A stretch of DNA of 64,000 bases from Ignavibacteria bacterium (GTDB taxonomy: Bacteria > Bacteroidota > Ignavibacteria > Tepidaquicellales > Tepidaquicellaceae): contig DATAJP010000002.1 of the NCBI GenBank assembly GCA_036262055.1, positions 186,001-250,000 on the forward strand. The letters run 5' to 3'. This document shows positions 47,483 through 53,974 of the stretch, piece after piece (positions within the stretch are counted from its first letter, which is position 1; every line of letters starts with the position of its first letter). A model generated the notes under the pieces. It ran no database searches. It saw only the letters and a program-made list of their open reading frames with translations, and was not told where the DNA came from. The position numbers and the translations under genes were made by a program.

Positions 47483-47818
47483 CCTCGTAAAAAAACATTG
47501 ATTTATTTTAAAAAAGCCGTCTTTTGACGGCTTTTTTATTTACATTTCTATATTTCCACAAAATCCTCAAAAAATAAACTTAAATAGCCAATAATTGTAA
47601 GTATAATTAAGTGTTTTAACTTAGAATTAACGACTTATTGAGGATAAATAAGTTATATCTAAGCTAAATTAATAATTATTTTTATCAGTCTTGATTTTAT
47701 TGTTTGGGTTCTTTATAATTGTAGTGTAAAAACTATCTTAAAACGTAGTTTTTTGTTTTACCCTGAAAGAGAAAAACCCCTGATTTTAAATAATATTCAT
47801 AAAACTAAATTAACTGCT
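47483..47818. other. 336-bp leader region
   Basis: After the terminator at 47511-47537, about 280 bp of strongly AT-rich sequence precede the next ATG. There is no open frame with coding character. It should hold the promoter and a long leader of the first YCF48 paralogue. I could not pick out a specific promoter with confidence, and the second paralogue has a shorter, different upstream region. Confidence 0.6.
47511..47537 (+). terminator. Rho-independent terminator after the S8 protease gene
   Basis: AAAAAGCCGTC-TTTT-GACGGCTTTTTT, about 28 bp after the stop codon. Confidence 0.9.
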
Positions 47819-49093
47819 ATGAAAAAAATTTTTATGGTTTTAGCAATGATGTTTTTAACTGTAACCATTGCAAATGCTCAACCATGGACAGCCTACAATA
47901 CGGGACAGCCGTATTCATTATTCGGTGTTGACTTTAAAGATGCAAACACCGGTGTTGCTATCGGTCAGGGCGGAACAGTATTGAGAACCACGGATGCAGG
48001 CGCAAACTGGGAAGTTGTCTGGCAGCATTTAACAATCTGGCTCAATGATGTTAAATGGCAAGGCGCAGGAAATCCGACATGGGTTTGGGCGGTTGGCTTA
48101 CACGGTGTAATTTTAAAATCTGTTGATGACGGTGTTACATGGACCATTTCAAGAGATTCTTCTGATGTATTGCATACATTAAGAGGACTTGAGACATGGG
48201 GAACAGACAACGTTCTTGCAGTTGGTTATGCAGGAGCAATGTTCCAGACAAACAATGGTGGTGGAGTTTGGGCTCAGCGAACCGATATCCCTTGGACAAT
48301 GCATTCAATTGCATTCTCACCTAACTTCTTAGTTGATGGTAGAGCTATTATCTGCGGAACAGACGGTTTAATCTGGAGGTCAACAAACTTCGGAGCAAAC
48401 TGGGTATCAAGACCTTCAGGCAGATATGATTACCTGAATGATGTTGTTTTCTTAGATCCGGATGTCGCAATGATTTGCGGTAACAACGGAACAGTTTTAA
48501 GAAGCACCAACTGGGGATTCAGCTGGTCGCTTATTGATTTCTCATCAATTACAATTGAGCATTTGCGTTCAATTGACCAGTTCTTTGACGGTATTGCCCG
48601 CAAAGTTACTGTAGTTGGTGACCATGGAAAAATCCTGACATCAAACGATAATGGTTTCGTTTGGTTTGATCAGTTAAATGCTGACGGAAGACATTTATAC
48701 GGAGTTTCTTTATACTCATTAACAAATGCAACTGCAGTAGGTGAAGTCGGAACAGGCGTTACCGGCGCAATGTTCGTAACATTCGCAAACGGTGCAGTAG
48801 GCATCAGCCAGAACGGAACAACAGTTCCTTCAAAATTTGAGTTGAGCCAGAACTATCCTAATCCGTTCAACCCAAGCACTAAAATTAATATTTCAGTTCC
48901 TTTCACAAGTCCTGTTAAATTAACTGTGTTTGACATAACAGGAAAAGAAGTTGCTTCATTGTTTAACGGAACATTGAGCGCAGGAAATTATACATATGAT
49001 TTCAATGCAACAAATCTTGCCTCAGGAATTTATATGTATCAGTTGACAACAAACAACTTTGTTGAAACGAAAAGAATGACTCTTATTAAGTAA
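47819..49093 (+). CDS. Secreted YCF48-repeat protein with T9SS sorting domain (paralogue 1)
   Basis: From ATG 47819 (signal MKKIFMVLAMMFLTVTIANA) the protein has 424 residues. It contains a YCF48-type propeller (ANTGVAIGQGGTVLRTTDAG, WAVGLHGVILKSVDDG, CGTDGLIWRSTNFGANW, CGNNGTVLRSTNWG) and a T9SS domain (SQNYPNPFNPSTKINISVP, LASGIYMYQL, KRMTLIK). Upstream in-frame residues to 47753 do not look like a signal peptide and are rejected. The downstream gene encodes a close tandem paralogue. YCF48-family proteins serve as assembly factors in phototrophs; that role is not implied here. Confidence 0.9.
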   Translation: MKKIFMVLAMMFLTVTIANAQPWTAYNTGQPYSLFGVDFKDANTGVAIGQGGTVLRTTDAGANWEVVWQHLTIWLNDVKWQGAGNPTWVWAVGLHGVILKSVDDGVTWTISRDSSDVLHTLRGLETWGTDNVLAVGYAGAMFQTNNGGGVWAQRTDIPWTMHSIAFSPNFLVDGRAIICGTDGLIWRSTNFGANWVSRPSGRYDYLNDVVFLDPDVAMICGNNGTVLRSTNWGFSWSLIDFSSITIEHLRSIDQFFDGIARKVTVVGDHGKILTSNDNGFVWFDQLNADGRHLYGVSLYSLTNATAVGEVGTGVTGAMFVTFANGAVGISQNGTTVPSKFELSQNYPNPFNPSTKINISVPFTSPVKLTVFDITGKEVASLFNGTLSAGNYTYDFNATNLASGIYMYQLTTNNFVETKRMTLIK

Positions 49094-49125
49094 GAATTTC
49101 CAAATATACTTTTTTCATAGTAAGG

Positions 49126-49151
49126 AAGCCCCGTGAAAACGGGGCTTTTTT
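49126..49151 (+). terminator. Rho-independent terminator after YCF48 paralogue 1
   Basis: AAGCCCCGT-GAAA-ACGGGGCTTTTTT, about 33 bp after the stop. Confidence 0.92.
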
Positions 49152-49325
49152 ATTTTAATTCATTAGTAAAAATGCTTATTTACAAACAAAAGTCTTGATT
49201 TTTATTTTTATAATCGCAATTTTGTAGTAAATAAACTCGCTCAGTTACCCTACTTCGCCTGTTTATCACACCCTGAAAAAATCACCCTGAAGCTTAGAAT
49301 TATTTTCTAAATTAAATTTTTTGCT

Positions 49326-50597
49326 ATGAAAAGATTTTTCTTCGCTTTATTTTTGGTGTTTGCCACAGTCGAAAGCACCCAAGCACAACCCTGGACATTA
49401 TATCAAACCGGAGTTCCATATTCGCTTTTTGCAGTCGATTTTAAGGACGCAAATACCGGTCTTGCTGTAGGTCAGGGAGGAACCATCATAAGAACAATAG
49501 ACGGCGGTCAAAGCTGGAATCTTGTATACCAGCATTTAACAATCTGGCTTAATGATGTTAAATGGCAGGGCGCGGGGAATCCGACCTGGGCTTGGGCAGT
49601 CGGTCTTAACGGGGTTATCTTAAAAAGCACTAATGATGGCGCAAATTGGACAGTCTCAAAAGACTCGACGGATGTTTTGCATACCTTGCGGGGTCTTGAA
49701 ACATGGGGAGTTGATAACGTTCTTGCTGTCGGTTACGCAGGAGCAATGTTTCAGACTAATAACGGTGGTGCGGTGTGGACACAAAGAACAGACATTCCGT
49801 GGACAATGCACTCGATTGCTTTCTCGCCGAACTTTGCAATTGACGGAAGAGCAATAATAAGCGGGACTGACGGATTAATATGGCGTTCAACCAACTTCGG
49901 AGTTAACTGGGTATCACGACCTTCCGGAAGATTTGATTATCTTAATGACGTTGTTTTCATAAATCCGGATGTAGCAATGATATGCGGAAACAACGGAACG
50001 ATTTTACGTTCAACAAATTGGGGGCATACCTGGTCGGTTAATCTGCAATTTCTTACAAGCGAACATCTTCGCTCTATAGATATGTTCACTGACGGAATAA
50101 ACACTAAGATTACCACCTGCGGAGACCACGGAAAAATTATGACTTCGAATGATTTGGGTTTTACATTCATCGACCAGCTCAACCTTGAAACACGTCACAT
50201 GTACGGTGTATCATTAAGGTCATTGCTTGAAGGTACTGCAGTTGGTGAAATAGGAAGCGGGGCTGCAGGAGCAATGTATGTTACAAGCGCTAACGGTGCA
50301 GTTGGAATTTCTCAAATCGGAACCGGCGTACCGGATAAATTTGAGCTTAAACAAAATTATCCTAATCCCTTTAACCCAAGCACGAAGATAAATTTTTCAA
50401 TTCCTTTTGCAGGACCTGTTAAGCTGGCAGTATATGATATATCCGGGAAAGAAATTGCCTCATTGGTAAATGAAAAATTAAACGTTGGAACTTATGAATA
50501 TGAATTTAAAGCAGGTAATCTTGCAAGCGGAGTTTATTTCTACAAACTGATTACAAATGATTTTGTTCAGACAAAAAAAATGACTCTTATTAAATAA
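49326..50597 (+). CDS. Secreted YCF48-repeat protein with T9SS sorting domain (paralogue 2)
   Basis: This 423-residue tandem paralogue has the same architecture as the gene at 47819: signal peptide (FFFALFLVFATVESTQA), YCF48 propeller and T9SS domain (KQNYPNPFNPSTKINFSIP, LASGVYFYKL, KKMTLIK). Long stretches match its neighbour exactly, such as LNDVKWQGAGNPTW and AVGYAGAMFQTNNGG, while the signal peptides and 3' parts of the propeller differ. Each copy has its own terminator, so they are separately transcribed. The duplication may allow antigenic or functional variation. Confidence 0.9.
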   Translation: MKRFFFALFLVFATVESTQAQPWTLYQTGVPYSLFAVDFKDANTGLAVGQGGTIIRTIDGGQSWNLVYQHLTIWLNDVKWQGAGNPTWAWAVGLNGVILKSTNDGANWTVSKDSTDVLHTLRGLETWGVDNVLAVGYAGAMFQTNNGGAVWTQRTDIPWTMHSIAFSPNFAIDGRAIISGTDGLIWRSTNFGVNWVSRPSGRFDYLNDVVFINPDVAMICGNNGTILRSTNWGHTWSVNLQFLTSEHLRSIDMFTDGINTKITTCGDHGKIMTSNDLGFTFIDQLNLETRHMYGVSLRSLLEGTAVGEIGSGAAGAMYVTSANGAVGISQIGTGVPDKFELKQNYPNPFNPSTKINFSIPFAGPVKLAVYDISGKEIASLVNEKLNVGTYEYEFKAGNLASGVYFYKLITNDFVQTKKMTLIK

Positions 50598-50752: not shown

Positions 50753-52027
50753 TTAATTTTTTTCTTGCTTAAACAATATCTCCACAAAACAATATACATC
50801 CTCAAAAGTATTATATAACGGAACAGGAGCAACGCGTATTACATCCGGTTCACGCCAGTCACAAAAAACGCATTCCTTAATCAATCTGTCATGCATAATT
50901 TTTCCGTTTTCTTTTGCTCTTAATGACAATTGACAGCCCCGCGCATCGGGATTTGCGGGTGTAATAATTTCTATTAAATTATTATGTTCCTTATTTTTTT
51001 CGTTTATTAGATACTCCATATAACCAGTAAGCTGCACACTTTTTTCTCTCAGTTTTTCTATATTAGCTTCATAAAAAACATCAAGAGATGCTTTTAATGC
51101 CGCTAATTGAAAAATCGGAGGATTGCTTAACTGCCAACTTTCAGCAGTTGGAATCGGAATATATTTCGAGTCCATTAAGAATCTTGTTCCCTTATCATGT
51201 CCCCACCATCCTAGAAATTTCGGAAGTGTTGCATCCTGAACGTGCTTTTTATTTATAAAAGCTCCGCCTATTGCGCCGGGACCGCCATTCATATATTTAT
51301 AATTACACCACACAGCAAAATCAACATCCCAGTCATGCAAATACAATGGCACATTTCCTATTGCATGAGCCAAATCAAAACCAACAATGCATCCTTTTTT
51401 ATGTCCTGCCTCAGTAATTCCTTTCATGTCGAACAATTGCCCGGAGTAATAATTCACTCCTGCAATCATTATCAAAGCAATCTTATCTCCTTCCCTGTCA
51501 ATGATTTCCAAAATGTCATCCATTCTTGTGATGGATTCGCCTTCTCTCGGCTTTGCTTCAATCAATGCATCCGCAACACCGAAACCATGAAATCTTATCT
51601 GTGATTGAACTGCATAATGGTCGGAAGGAAAACAATTTCCTTCAATTAATATTTTATAACGTTCATTTGTTGGTCTGTAAAATGATACCATCATTAAATG
51701 CAGGTTGACCGTAAGCGAGTTCATGTTCACAACTTCCTCGTTTTCTGCTCCCGCAAGCGCAGCGGTTTTTTCGGTTAAGAACTCGTGATACGGCAGCCAC
51801 GGGTTTTGCGCATGAAGATGACCTTCGACGCCAAGGTTTTTCCAGTCTTCCAGTTCTTGTTCAACATATGCTTTAGTTATGAACGGCTGAAGTCCAAGTG
51901 AGTTTCCGCAAAGATAAATAACTTCATTACGGTCTTTATCACGGGGAATATGAAACCGGTTGCGGAATTCCCTCAGCGGGTCGTTTTTGTCAGCGTCTTT
52001 TGCGTAATTTTTATCTGTTGTGTACAT
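50753..52027 (-). CDS. kynU: Kynureninase
   Basis: KynU is a PLP enzyme that splits kynurenine into anthranilate and alanine. The 424 residues are usual. Family marks are YLCGNSLGLQP at the N-terminus, LTVNLHLMMVSFY, the cofactor-binding FDLAHAIGN, and the Schiff-base Lys in WCNYKYMNGGPG near residue 240. It lies 66 bp after the cyclase gene that would supply its substrate. Tryptophan 2,3-dioxygenase, the first pathway step, is not in the window. Confidence 0.95.
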   Translation of the reverse strand: MYTTDKNYAKDADKNDPLREFRNRFHIPRDKDRNEVIYLCGNSLGLQPFITKAYVEQELEDWKNLGVEGHLHAQNPWLPYHEFLTEKTAALAGAENEEVVNMNSLTVNLHLMMVSFYRPTNERYKILIEGNCFPSDHYAVQSQIRFHGFGVADALIEAKPREGESITRMDDILEIIDREGDKIALIMIAGVNYYSGQLFDMKGITEAGHKKGCIVGFDLAHAIGNVPLYLHDWDVDFAVWCNYKYMNGGPGAIGGAFINKKHVQDATLPKFLGWWGHDKGTRFLMDSKYIPIPTAESWQLSNPPIFQLAALKASLDVFYEANIEKLREKSVQLTGYMEYLINEKNKEHNNLIEIITPANPDARGCQLSLRAKENGKIMHDRLIKECVFCDWREPDVIRVAPVPLYNTFEDVYCFVEILFKQEKN

Positions 52028-52093
52028 TTTACAATTTAATTACGAATTTCACAAATTAATACGAACTTTTAAAAACAAAATTAATTAAAAAGG

Positions 52094-52900
52094 TCATTGC
52101 AAATTGTAAAGAAATACTCTGCTTGGTGCGGCATCTGATTTCCAATCGGGAATCTGAATACTCACCAAATATTTTCCATCAGTTATTTCATTTGATGCAT
52201 AAATCATTTCAGTAATTGTTTTCAATGAATGATTATTCTTTTCGACATCGTGACTTTCTTGTTTAACGTTCCAAAAAATATGATGATTAGACAGCTTGCC
52301 TTCGTCAAATGTTCTGTCAACTGAAGGCAAATCTGCAAGCAGATGCTCAATGCCGAGTTCATTAATATAACTCATCGCGCCATTAGAAAAAAATGGCGGT
52401 TCGTTTTGCATGTATCTTCTGATTTTTTTGGAATCATCGTTCGGCAAAGTTCTTATCATTAAAGCTTTTACGTTATCATTTTTTTTAATTTTTTTCTCTA
52501 TGCTTTCTCGTGTAATGACTTTATCTGTGCCGTTGAACTTTGGGTCATAATTATCTTTAGTCTTATCTGCATTAACAGGTTCTACGGTAATTAATTCCCC
52601 AATCATAAAAATATTTTTCAGAACATCATTTACATAAATTCTTTTATCGGTTATGTGACCGACGCATTCGGTGTGTGTGCCGTTGCAATGAGGGATAAGG
52701 GTAACTTTTTCAAAGTTACAGCTTCCGCCCTGACGTGTATCGCCGATTATATCACCCGCCTGATATGGGAATGAAGTCGCAAGCTCGACATCATATGTGT
52801 TCGGCTGTTCTGCGTTGAAATTAACAGGTATGGATATTTCAAGAGGTGCTGAAACATCAACTGAATAATTTTTATTATTTATTTCAATGGATAACTTCAT
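52094..52900 (-). CDS. Cyclase-family protein, probable kynurenine formamidase
   Basis: This metal-dependent cyclase/hydrolase has the zinc motif HCNGTHTECVGH, the variant of the family HxGTHxD signature. Other family features are the SIPVNF opening and the ADLPSVDR segment near residue 195. KynB-type formamidases (hydrolysing N-formylkynurenine) belong to this family, and the next gene is kynureninase, so formamidase activity is the best guess. At 268 residues it is longer than typical KynB (about 210). Its ATG directly follows the stop codon of the channel gene. Confidence 0.78.
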   Translation of the reverse strand: MKLSIEINNKNYSVDVSAPLEISIPVNFNAEQPNTYDVELATSFPYQAGDIIGDTRQGGSCNFEKVTLIPHCNGTHTECVGHITDKRIYVNDVLKNIFMIGELITVEPVNADKTKDNYDPKFNGTDKVITRESIEKKIKKNDNVKALMIRTLPNDDSKKIRRYMQNEPPFFSNGAMSYINELGIEHLLADLPSVDRTFDEGKLSNHHIFWNVKQESHDVEKNNHSLKTITEMIYASNEITDGKYLVSIQIPDWKSDAAPSRVFLYNLQ

Positions 52901-53974
52901 TTAGTATGCCTCAAGATATTTATACTCAATTCTGCTGTATTCTTCAGTATCAATTACCTGGAGCAATGAACTATTAATAAAATCTCTGATGGGACTATTA
53001 TGTTTCATTCCGAATGAAAACGAAACCTGCTCTGCCCGCATAGGGTAAAGAATAACGTCATCGTAATTCATTGTCTTTATGTCATATCTCAGCATATATT
53101 CATTTGAGACAAAAGCATCGATTTGTCCGTCTTTCAATGCTCTAAAACCGTCGTTACTGCTGTCATAAGTTTTTAATTTTGCTCCAAGGTTTTTAAAATT
53201 ATAATCATCAATGTCTTTCAGCAGCCCCAAAGATTTGCCTGAAAAATCTTTTTTGTTAAGTATCATCGGCTGGTTTATATCCTGATTTATGATATTCGTA
53301 ACTGTTGCAGTAAAAAAACTTACCGCAATGACACTGATGAACATCCATACAAGAGTTACAATTCTTCCGCCGGTTGTCGAAGGATTTTTTTCACCTGCAA
53401 TAGTAGTGAAAGTTGTGCCTGCCCAGAAAACTCCCATCCCGAAACCCTTTCGCCATTTACCGCCATAATCGCTTTTGTCTGATTTTCTTTCAAACAGCCA
53501 GATTAAAATTCCGACAGGAATTATGCTTAACACGAATATTAATGCAAGCTTTAGAAAACTCCATGATATAACAATATCGAAAACACTTACCAGAGGATCT
53601 TTGCCCGTTGTGCTTTTTGTAGCATATGCGAGGGATGAAGTATAAAAAGGATATGTCAGCTCAATATCTTTGTATGTATTGTCGCTTAAGATTAAGCTGT
53701 TAGCAACAACGTCAATTTTTCCCGAGTTCAGAACGGCTGCAATCGAATCCTGGTCTATCTCAATTATATTGTATCGTACATCTTTCTTTTGAGAAATGAG
53801 AAGCCACAAGTCAACCGCGATACCTGTCCATCTTCCAAGCTCATCCTTGTGAGCAAACGGAGGATTTTCATAAACCCCTACATATATTGTATCTTTGCCG
53901 GGAGTTAATTGCTGCGAATAAATGCTTTGCGAAACAGTTAGAAGCAATAATATAAATAGAAGAAATTTTTTCAT
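52901..53974 (-). CDS. Glutamate-receptor-like ligand-gated ion channel (GluR0 type)
   Basis: The layout is signal peptide (MKKFLLFILLLLTVSQSIYS), first half of a family-3 solute-binding domain (IYVGVYENPPFAHKDELGRWTGIAVDL), a channel block and the second half (GKSLGLLKDIDDY, DAFVSNEYML). The channel block has M1 (LALIFVLSIIPVGILIWLF), a pore loop (FWAGTTFTTIAGEKNPST) and M3 (IVTLVWMFISVIAVSFFTATVTNII). This is the prokaryotic ionotropic glutamate receptor fold. No K+-type TVGYGD filter is seen, and the Arg that usually grips the ligand carboxylate seems replaced (LSDNTYKDIELTYPFY). The start is ATG 53974, which gives the signal peptide. It is directly joined to the cyclase and kynU genes. 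Confidence 0.85.
   Translation of the reverse strand: MKKFLLFILLLLTVSQSIYSQQLTPGKDTIYVGVYENPPFAHKDELGRWTGIAVDLWLLISQKKDVRYNIIEIDQDSIAAVLNSGKIDVVANSLILSDNTYKDIELTYPFYTSSLAYATKSTTGKDPLVSVFDIVISWSFLKLALIFVLSIIPVGILIWLFERKSDKSDYGGKWRKGFGMGVFWAGTTFTTIAGEKNPSTTGGRIVTLVWMFISVIAVSFFTATVTNIINQDINQPMILNKKDFSGKSLGLLKDIDDYNFKNLGAKLKTYDSSNDGFRALKDGQIDAFVSNEYMLRYDIKTMNYDDVILYPMRAEQVSFSFGMKHNSPIRDFINSSLLQVIDTEEYSRIEYKYLEAY

Follow-up and report, generated by a model that had tools for sequence, protein, structure and literature searches.

The window analysed here, a 64-kb stretch of DNA, comes from an organism of the same family as Ignavibacteria bacterium UBA6667. Its minus strand carries three consecutive genes, which encode a channel related to ionotropic glutamate receptors (iGluRs), a cyclase, and a kynureninase, and hflX lies upstream of the channel gene in divergent orientation. 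The features to which we refer below are as follows:

52901..53974, minus strand: iGluR-like channel gene (357 aa), comprising a signal-peptide-like N-terminus, S1 lobe, M1, P-loop, M3, and S2 lobe
53675..53677, minus strand: codon of T100, which aligns with the ligand-binding Arg (R in all 39 relatives; T/N/N in the window channel and its two sister-genus counterparts)
53381..53407, minus strand: pore-loop filter TTIAGEKNP (residues 190-198), which takes the place of TTVGYGDKAP
53102..53104, minus strand: codon of N291, which aligns with the amine-binding Asp (D in 38 of the 39 relatives; N/S/S in the same three channels)
52094..52900, minus strand: PF04199 cyclase (268 aa), a probable kynurenine formamidase, with the metal motif H71-x-x-G-T-H76-x-E78-x-x-G-H82 and a homologue in the G063 kynurenine gene cluster
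50753..52027, minus strand: kynureninase (424 aa), with an intact PLP-lysine motif, NYKYMNGGPG

An earlier sequence-only reading had described these genes as lying on one strand and joined with no gap. All three open reading frames were found in that place on the minus strand, and the missing gap is real between channel and cyclase (the TAA stop of the former abuts the ATG of the latter, 0 bp) but not between cyclase and kynureninase, which are 66 bp apart. We regard the channel and the two enzymes as one operon-like cluster that would be co-transcribed, and the tight junctions between channel and cyclase (0 bp, or a 4-bp overlap in the sister genus) suggest that these two may be translationally coupled. 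Beside the cluster, at window positions 47753-50597, are tandem YCF48-like proteins with T9SS sorting tails, of which three copies occur at about the same place in two sister-genus genomes (G003 and G017).

The channel scored above the curated Pfam cut-offs for SBP_bac_3 (56 bits), Lig_chan (38 bits), and Ion_trans_2 (25 bits). The Lig_chan match (residues 146-247) is nested within that of SBP_bac_3 (residues 32-355), and the SBP_bac_3 domain is interrupted by a pore loop and two markedly hydrophobic segments, i.e., the layout of bacterial iGluRs; the N-terminus, judged by eye, is hydrophobic and typical of a signal peptide. An AlphaFold model of moderate confidence (pLDDT 63.5), built from three sequences, has helices at residues 138-163, 179-195, and 201-233 between the lobes, and its Foldseek matches include periplasmic amino-acid-binding proteins, GluD, NMDA, AMPA, and GluR0. 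At this pLDDT, the model is too weak a basis for pocket modelling or docking. With lobes split around an M1-P-M3 pore, the protein falls within the ionotropic glutamate receptor superfamily in its broad sense, and as a whole it matches Bacteroidota-type bacterial channels far better than eukaryotic receptors.

We aligned the window channel with 41 full-length channels from ~690 genomes of the phylum. Two of them, from the sister genus (G003 and G017), share its oddities, and the other 39 form the comparison set. Four positions that are near-invariant among these 39 relatives (the binding Arg, a Thr/Ser, a lobe-2 Ser/Thr, and an Asp), which we take to be the established amino-acid contacts of SBP_bac_3 proteins and iGluRs, are gone in all three members of the subfamily. 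The Arg is T100 in the window channel, a correspondence also visible in its alignment to AncQR, and N in the two sister-genus channels; five residues earlier, a Thr/Ser found in 39/39 relatives has given way to I/G/G, and the lobe-2 Ser/Thr (37/39) to I/F/Y. Thus, the Arg and Asp clamp for alpha-carboxylate and alpha-amine of GluR0-type (Group 1) channels is missing (R100 to T/N/N, D291 to N/S/S). None of the three members has a new basic residue at the clamp positions, and the residues newly fixed in the lobes (Y35, E36, Y108, and Y293) are aromatic and acidic. The ligand-contact roles of R, T, and D/E are stated in PMC7882480.

The pore loop has changed as well, with TTFTTIAGEKNP in the window channel where relatives carry TMTTVGYGDKAP. 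Among the 39 relatives, 37 have TVGYGD and one has TTGYGD; the K+ filter TVGYGD, by which Group 1 is recognized, is lacking in the subfamily, all three members of which carry TIA-GEKN. This filter is one residue shorter than TVGYGD, and a Glu replaces the Asp of the others. In a search of the PDB with the isolated pore, plant GLR3.4 and NMDA GluN2B ranked first (best E 7e-5), whereas the pore of a K+-type relative, used as a control, ranked Kv channels first (E 1e-11). The GluN2B alignment crosses the filter without a gap, and the position of E195 would fit the '+4' acidic site of eukaryotic receptors (discussed in PMC12226733); however, the similarity is weak, and the eukaryotic receptors possess a third transmembrane helix. 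Collectively, the three structural claims of the sequence-only reading, namely an ionotropic glutamate receptor fold, no K+-type filter, and no Arg to hold the carboxylate, are borne out by these analyses.

Group 1 prokaryotic iGluRs, which include GluR0, and Group 2 have been described by Ger et al. 2010 (PMC2950845). The window channel resembles Group 1 in its S1-M1-P-M3-S2 order, SBP_bac_3 lobes, signal peptide, and nature as a bacterial membrane channel, but Group 1 has the K+ filter and the Group-1-like relatives in our alignment keep the amino-acid clamp, whereas the window subfamily has neither. With Group 2 (PMC2950845), it shares the topology of bacterial iGluRs and a non-K+-type pore loop, the two features compared; Group 2, however, has been proposed to be glutamate-sensitive (PMC2950845). 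Non-K+ bacterial iGluRs as such are already known from that group. Most insect chemosensory IRs, which are likewise iGluR relatives, have lost the R, T, and D/E contacts and come to sense other molecules (PMC7882480, PMC2924276), and the same contacts are lost in the window channel. IRs are animal proteins with co-receptors, whereas the whole window protein matches bacterial channels, and the likeness is one of loss pattern.

In the channel tree, the three subfamily members are monophyletic (100/100); their stem, at 3.38 changes per site, is the longest of the tree, and the branches beyond it are of ordinary length. The channel is under purifying selection overall, with a dN/dS of ~0.06 between the two sister-genus genomes, for which dS is near saturation; the membrane part of these two channels is 91% identical and the lobes 66-73%. 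A long stem with later constraint is what a phase of rapid change and subsequent conservation would leave behind, and missing intermediates would also lengthen the stem. The subfamily comprises three known sequences, and "conserved" refers to those three; within that scope, the alignments and rates mark the channel as a genuine bacterial iGluR variant that is unusual and under constraint.

The clamp loss could also mean that the channel is no longer ligand-gated, i.e., that the lobes bind nothing now and channel activity is either constitutive or under the control of voltage or ions. All four canonical contacts are lost and the lobes diverge faster than the membrane part, as this would lead one to expect, but the gene as a whole is held by purifying selection, and the newly fixed Y35, E36, Y108, and Y293 are what a rebuilt pocket would be expected to show. 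We consider a channel without a ligand unlikely.

With regard to the enzymes, the kynureninase is a clear member of TIGR01814 (480 bits against a cut-off of 246). The cyclase has a Pfam score of 45 bits for PF04199, and its metal motif HxxGTHxExxGH is kept in 30/30 relatives, but it belongs to another PF04199 branch than KynB (TIGR03035; 23 bits against a cut-off of 223). It is the sole PF04199 match in the window genome, and in G063 a row of genes on contig C36 reads 3-HAO, amidohydrolase, cyclase, kynureninase, KMO, TDO, with the cyclase homologue in the formamidase slot. Given this role in the cluster, the window cyclase is predicted to be, and probably is, a kynurenine formamidase. A cyclase ~50% identical to it occurs in G011 (99% complete; L091:6793-7614) without TDO, KMO, 3-HAO, or kynureninase, and this branch may have another role there.

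Elsewhere on contig C2 of the window genome, we found genes for TDO (512935), KMO (852237), and 3-HAO (841940); an ACMSD-like amidohydrolase adjoins 3-HAO, and NadA is also encoded, so that the kynurenine pathway is complete but dispersed. The gene divergent from KMO was considered as a kynurenine aminotransferase, which would make kynurenate, and rejected, as it encodes a glycine C-acetyltransferase. On the same strand, after 3-HAO, the amidohydrolase, two small putative lipoproteins, and a methyltransferase, there is a gene for a periplasmic LIVBP-type binding protein (ANF_receptor/Peripla_BP_6; G000:C2:845137-846348, i.e., L188:9137-10348), in an order partly kept in G003 (L190). Searches of the open-access literature for bacterial iGluRs associated with kynureninase, and for the kynurenine pathway in Ignavibacteria, turned up nothing relevant.

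The sequence-only reading had suggested, from the linkage of channel and enzymes, a possible receptor-metabolism link, and conservation of the gene order was accordingly examined. The three-gene order, with the same losses in the channel, recurs in the two sister-genus genomes, where channel and cyclase overlap by 4 bp, but not in other relatives that have cyclase and kynureninase. Among 44 genomes of the order, 41 lack the subfamily channel (G011 carries one of K+ type), and many of the channel-less genomes carry cyclase and kynureninase, either adjacent or with intervening genes. In several genera of the family, cyclase and kynureninase are separated by two similar-looking proteins of ~345 aa without matches in Pfam (L080:7012-9117; also L082, L083, L099, and L100). 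A strict pattern scan of GTDB r220 contigs matched only the two sister-genus genomes, a search of viral contigs found no homologues, and neither cyclase nor kynureninase was present within the 1.5-kb flanks of ~40 other iGluR-like channels of the phylum. In a marker tree carried by TDO, 3-HAO, and NadA, with KMO left out, the window genome is placed next to the sister genus, a position that the kynureninase tree supports weakly (83/81); the linkage therefore most simply arose once, in these two sister genera, and was then inherited.

As a control for adjacency, we compared ~400 kb of the window genome with ~300 kb of G003, taking consecutive genes with reciprocal best matches in both genomes. 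Of 87 gene pairs, 73 (84%) were still neighbours, as were 46 of 51 (90%) operon-like pairs, in stretches biased towards collinear regions. The persistence of the trio thus matches what is seen for neighbouring genes in general, and, given this background and the single origin supported by the trees, we did not accept the conserved linkage as an argument for function. The background favours the view that these are neighbours without a shared task, i.e., that the rebuilt-pocket channel serves something unrelated, such as ion or osmotic stress, and merely shares a transcript. A role in volume regulation under KCl stress is reported for cyanobacterial GluR0 (PMC13099474), and the cyclase-kynureninase pair occurs across the class without a channel. 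The tight junctions, with the coupling that they suggest, and the channel-side flank, where genes changed between genera while the three stayed together, speak against it. These two points, together with the coincidence of linkage and rebuilt pocket in one and the same subfamily, are what is left in favour of a tie. We put the chances of neighbours without a shared task at about even.

The sequence-only reading also suggested that a tryptophan-derived compound may be the ligand. With every contact of the alpha-amino-acid clamp gone, glutamate, alanine, tryptophan, kynurenine, and 3-hydroxykynurenine are unlikely candidates, and since no new basic residue has appeared there, anthranilate or kynurenate is not favoured; no feature of the sequence points to a kynurenine-derived acid. 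If Y35, E36, Y108, and Y293 line the pocket, a neutral or cationic ligand would be better accommodated than anthranilate or kynurenate. In animal receptors, kynurenate is held through the same Arg, and the analogy with them is weak because that Arg is missing in the window channel.

A channel gated by a metabolite of the pathway (anthranilate, kynurenate, an amine, or a neutral aromatic) would tie tryptophan breakdown to membrane potential. Every known subfamily member is directly upstream of cyclase and kynureninase, which none of the ~40 other channels has within 1.5 kb; the linked subfamily is also the one without the amino-acid clamp, and the genome encodes the pathway remainder (TDO, KMO, 3-HAO, and the ACMSD-like amidohydrolase). 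Against this, the linkage is a single evolutionary event kept at the background rate, most of the relatives that possess these enzymes are without the channel, the pocket offers an acid no new basic residue, and kynurenine and 3-hydroxykynurenine are themselves alpha-amino acids. In addition, the enzymes are cytoplasmic and the pocket is periplasmic, so that a metabolite would need to cross the membrane, outwards or inwards. We judge such gating improbable. Overall, the earlier interpretation stands as to the iGluR-type channel, its non-K+ filter, the lost Arg, and a linkage that extends to two more genomes, but the linkage does not support a receptor-metabolism link.

The best reading, which we hold to be reasonably probable, is a cation channel that is gated by a ligand bound in a rebuilt pocket, does not select for K+, and is expressed along with two kynurenine enzymes; the view of neighbours lacking a shared task is compatible with this and would be its likeliest version. 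It starts from the channel anatomy, losses, single origin, selection, and gene order established above. The first gene would encode an inner-membrane ligand-gated cation channel of the bacterial iGluR family, its periplasmic two-lobed binding domain split around M1, pore loop, and M3, probably made together with kynurenine formamidase and kynureninase. Before two sister genera of one Ignavibacteria family split, the channel would have landed upstream of the cyclase-kynureninase pair and then diverged strongly, losing the residues that hold an alpha-amino acid and exchanging the K+ filter for a shorter, eukaryote-like one, after which purifying selection would have kept the altered channel. Its likely ligand class is a small molecule other than an alpha-amino acid; lobe closure would let cations pass without K+ selectivity, and the cell would be depolarised.

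A bolder version makes the channel a bacterial counterpart of insect IRs, i.e., an iGluR that lost clamp and K+ filter in an event of its own and turned into a cation channel responding to a non-amino-acid compound derived from tryptophan, with the enzymes that make or consume this compound produced alongside it; we regard it as quite a long shot. The gene neighbours of the channel nevertheless provide a concrete first list of ligands to try. Bacterial iGluRs serve as the model for the origin of animal glutamate receptors from a K+ channel and a binding protein, and a lineage whose filter lost one residue and whose pocket was rebuilt offers a natural experiment on each of these steps. Another iGluR-like channel, in G601 (L170), has an altered filter, IGSSDGYP, and keeps the binding Arg.
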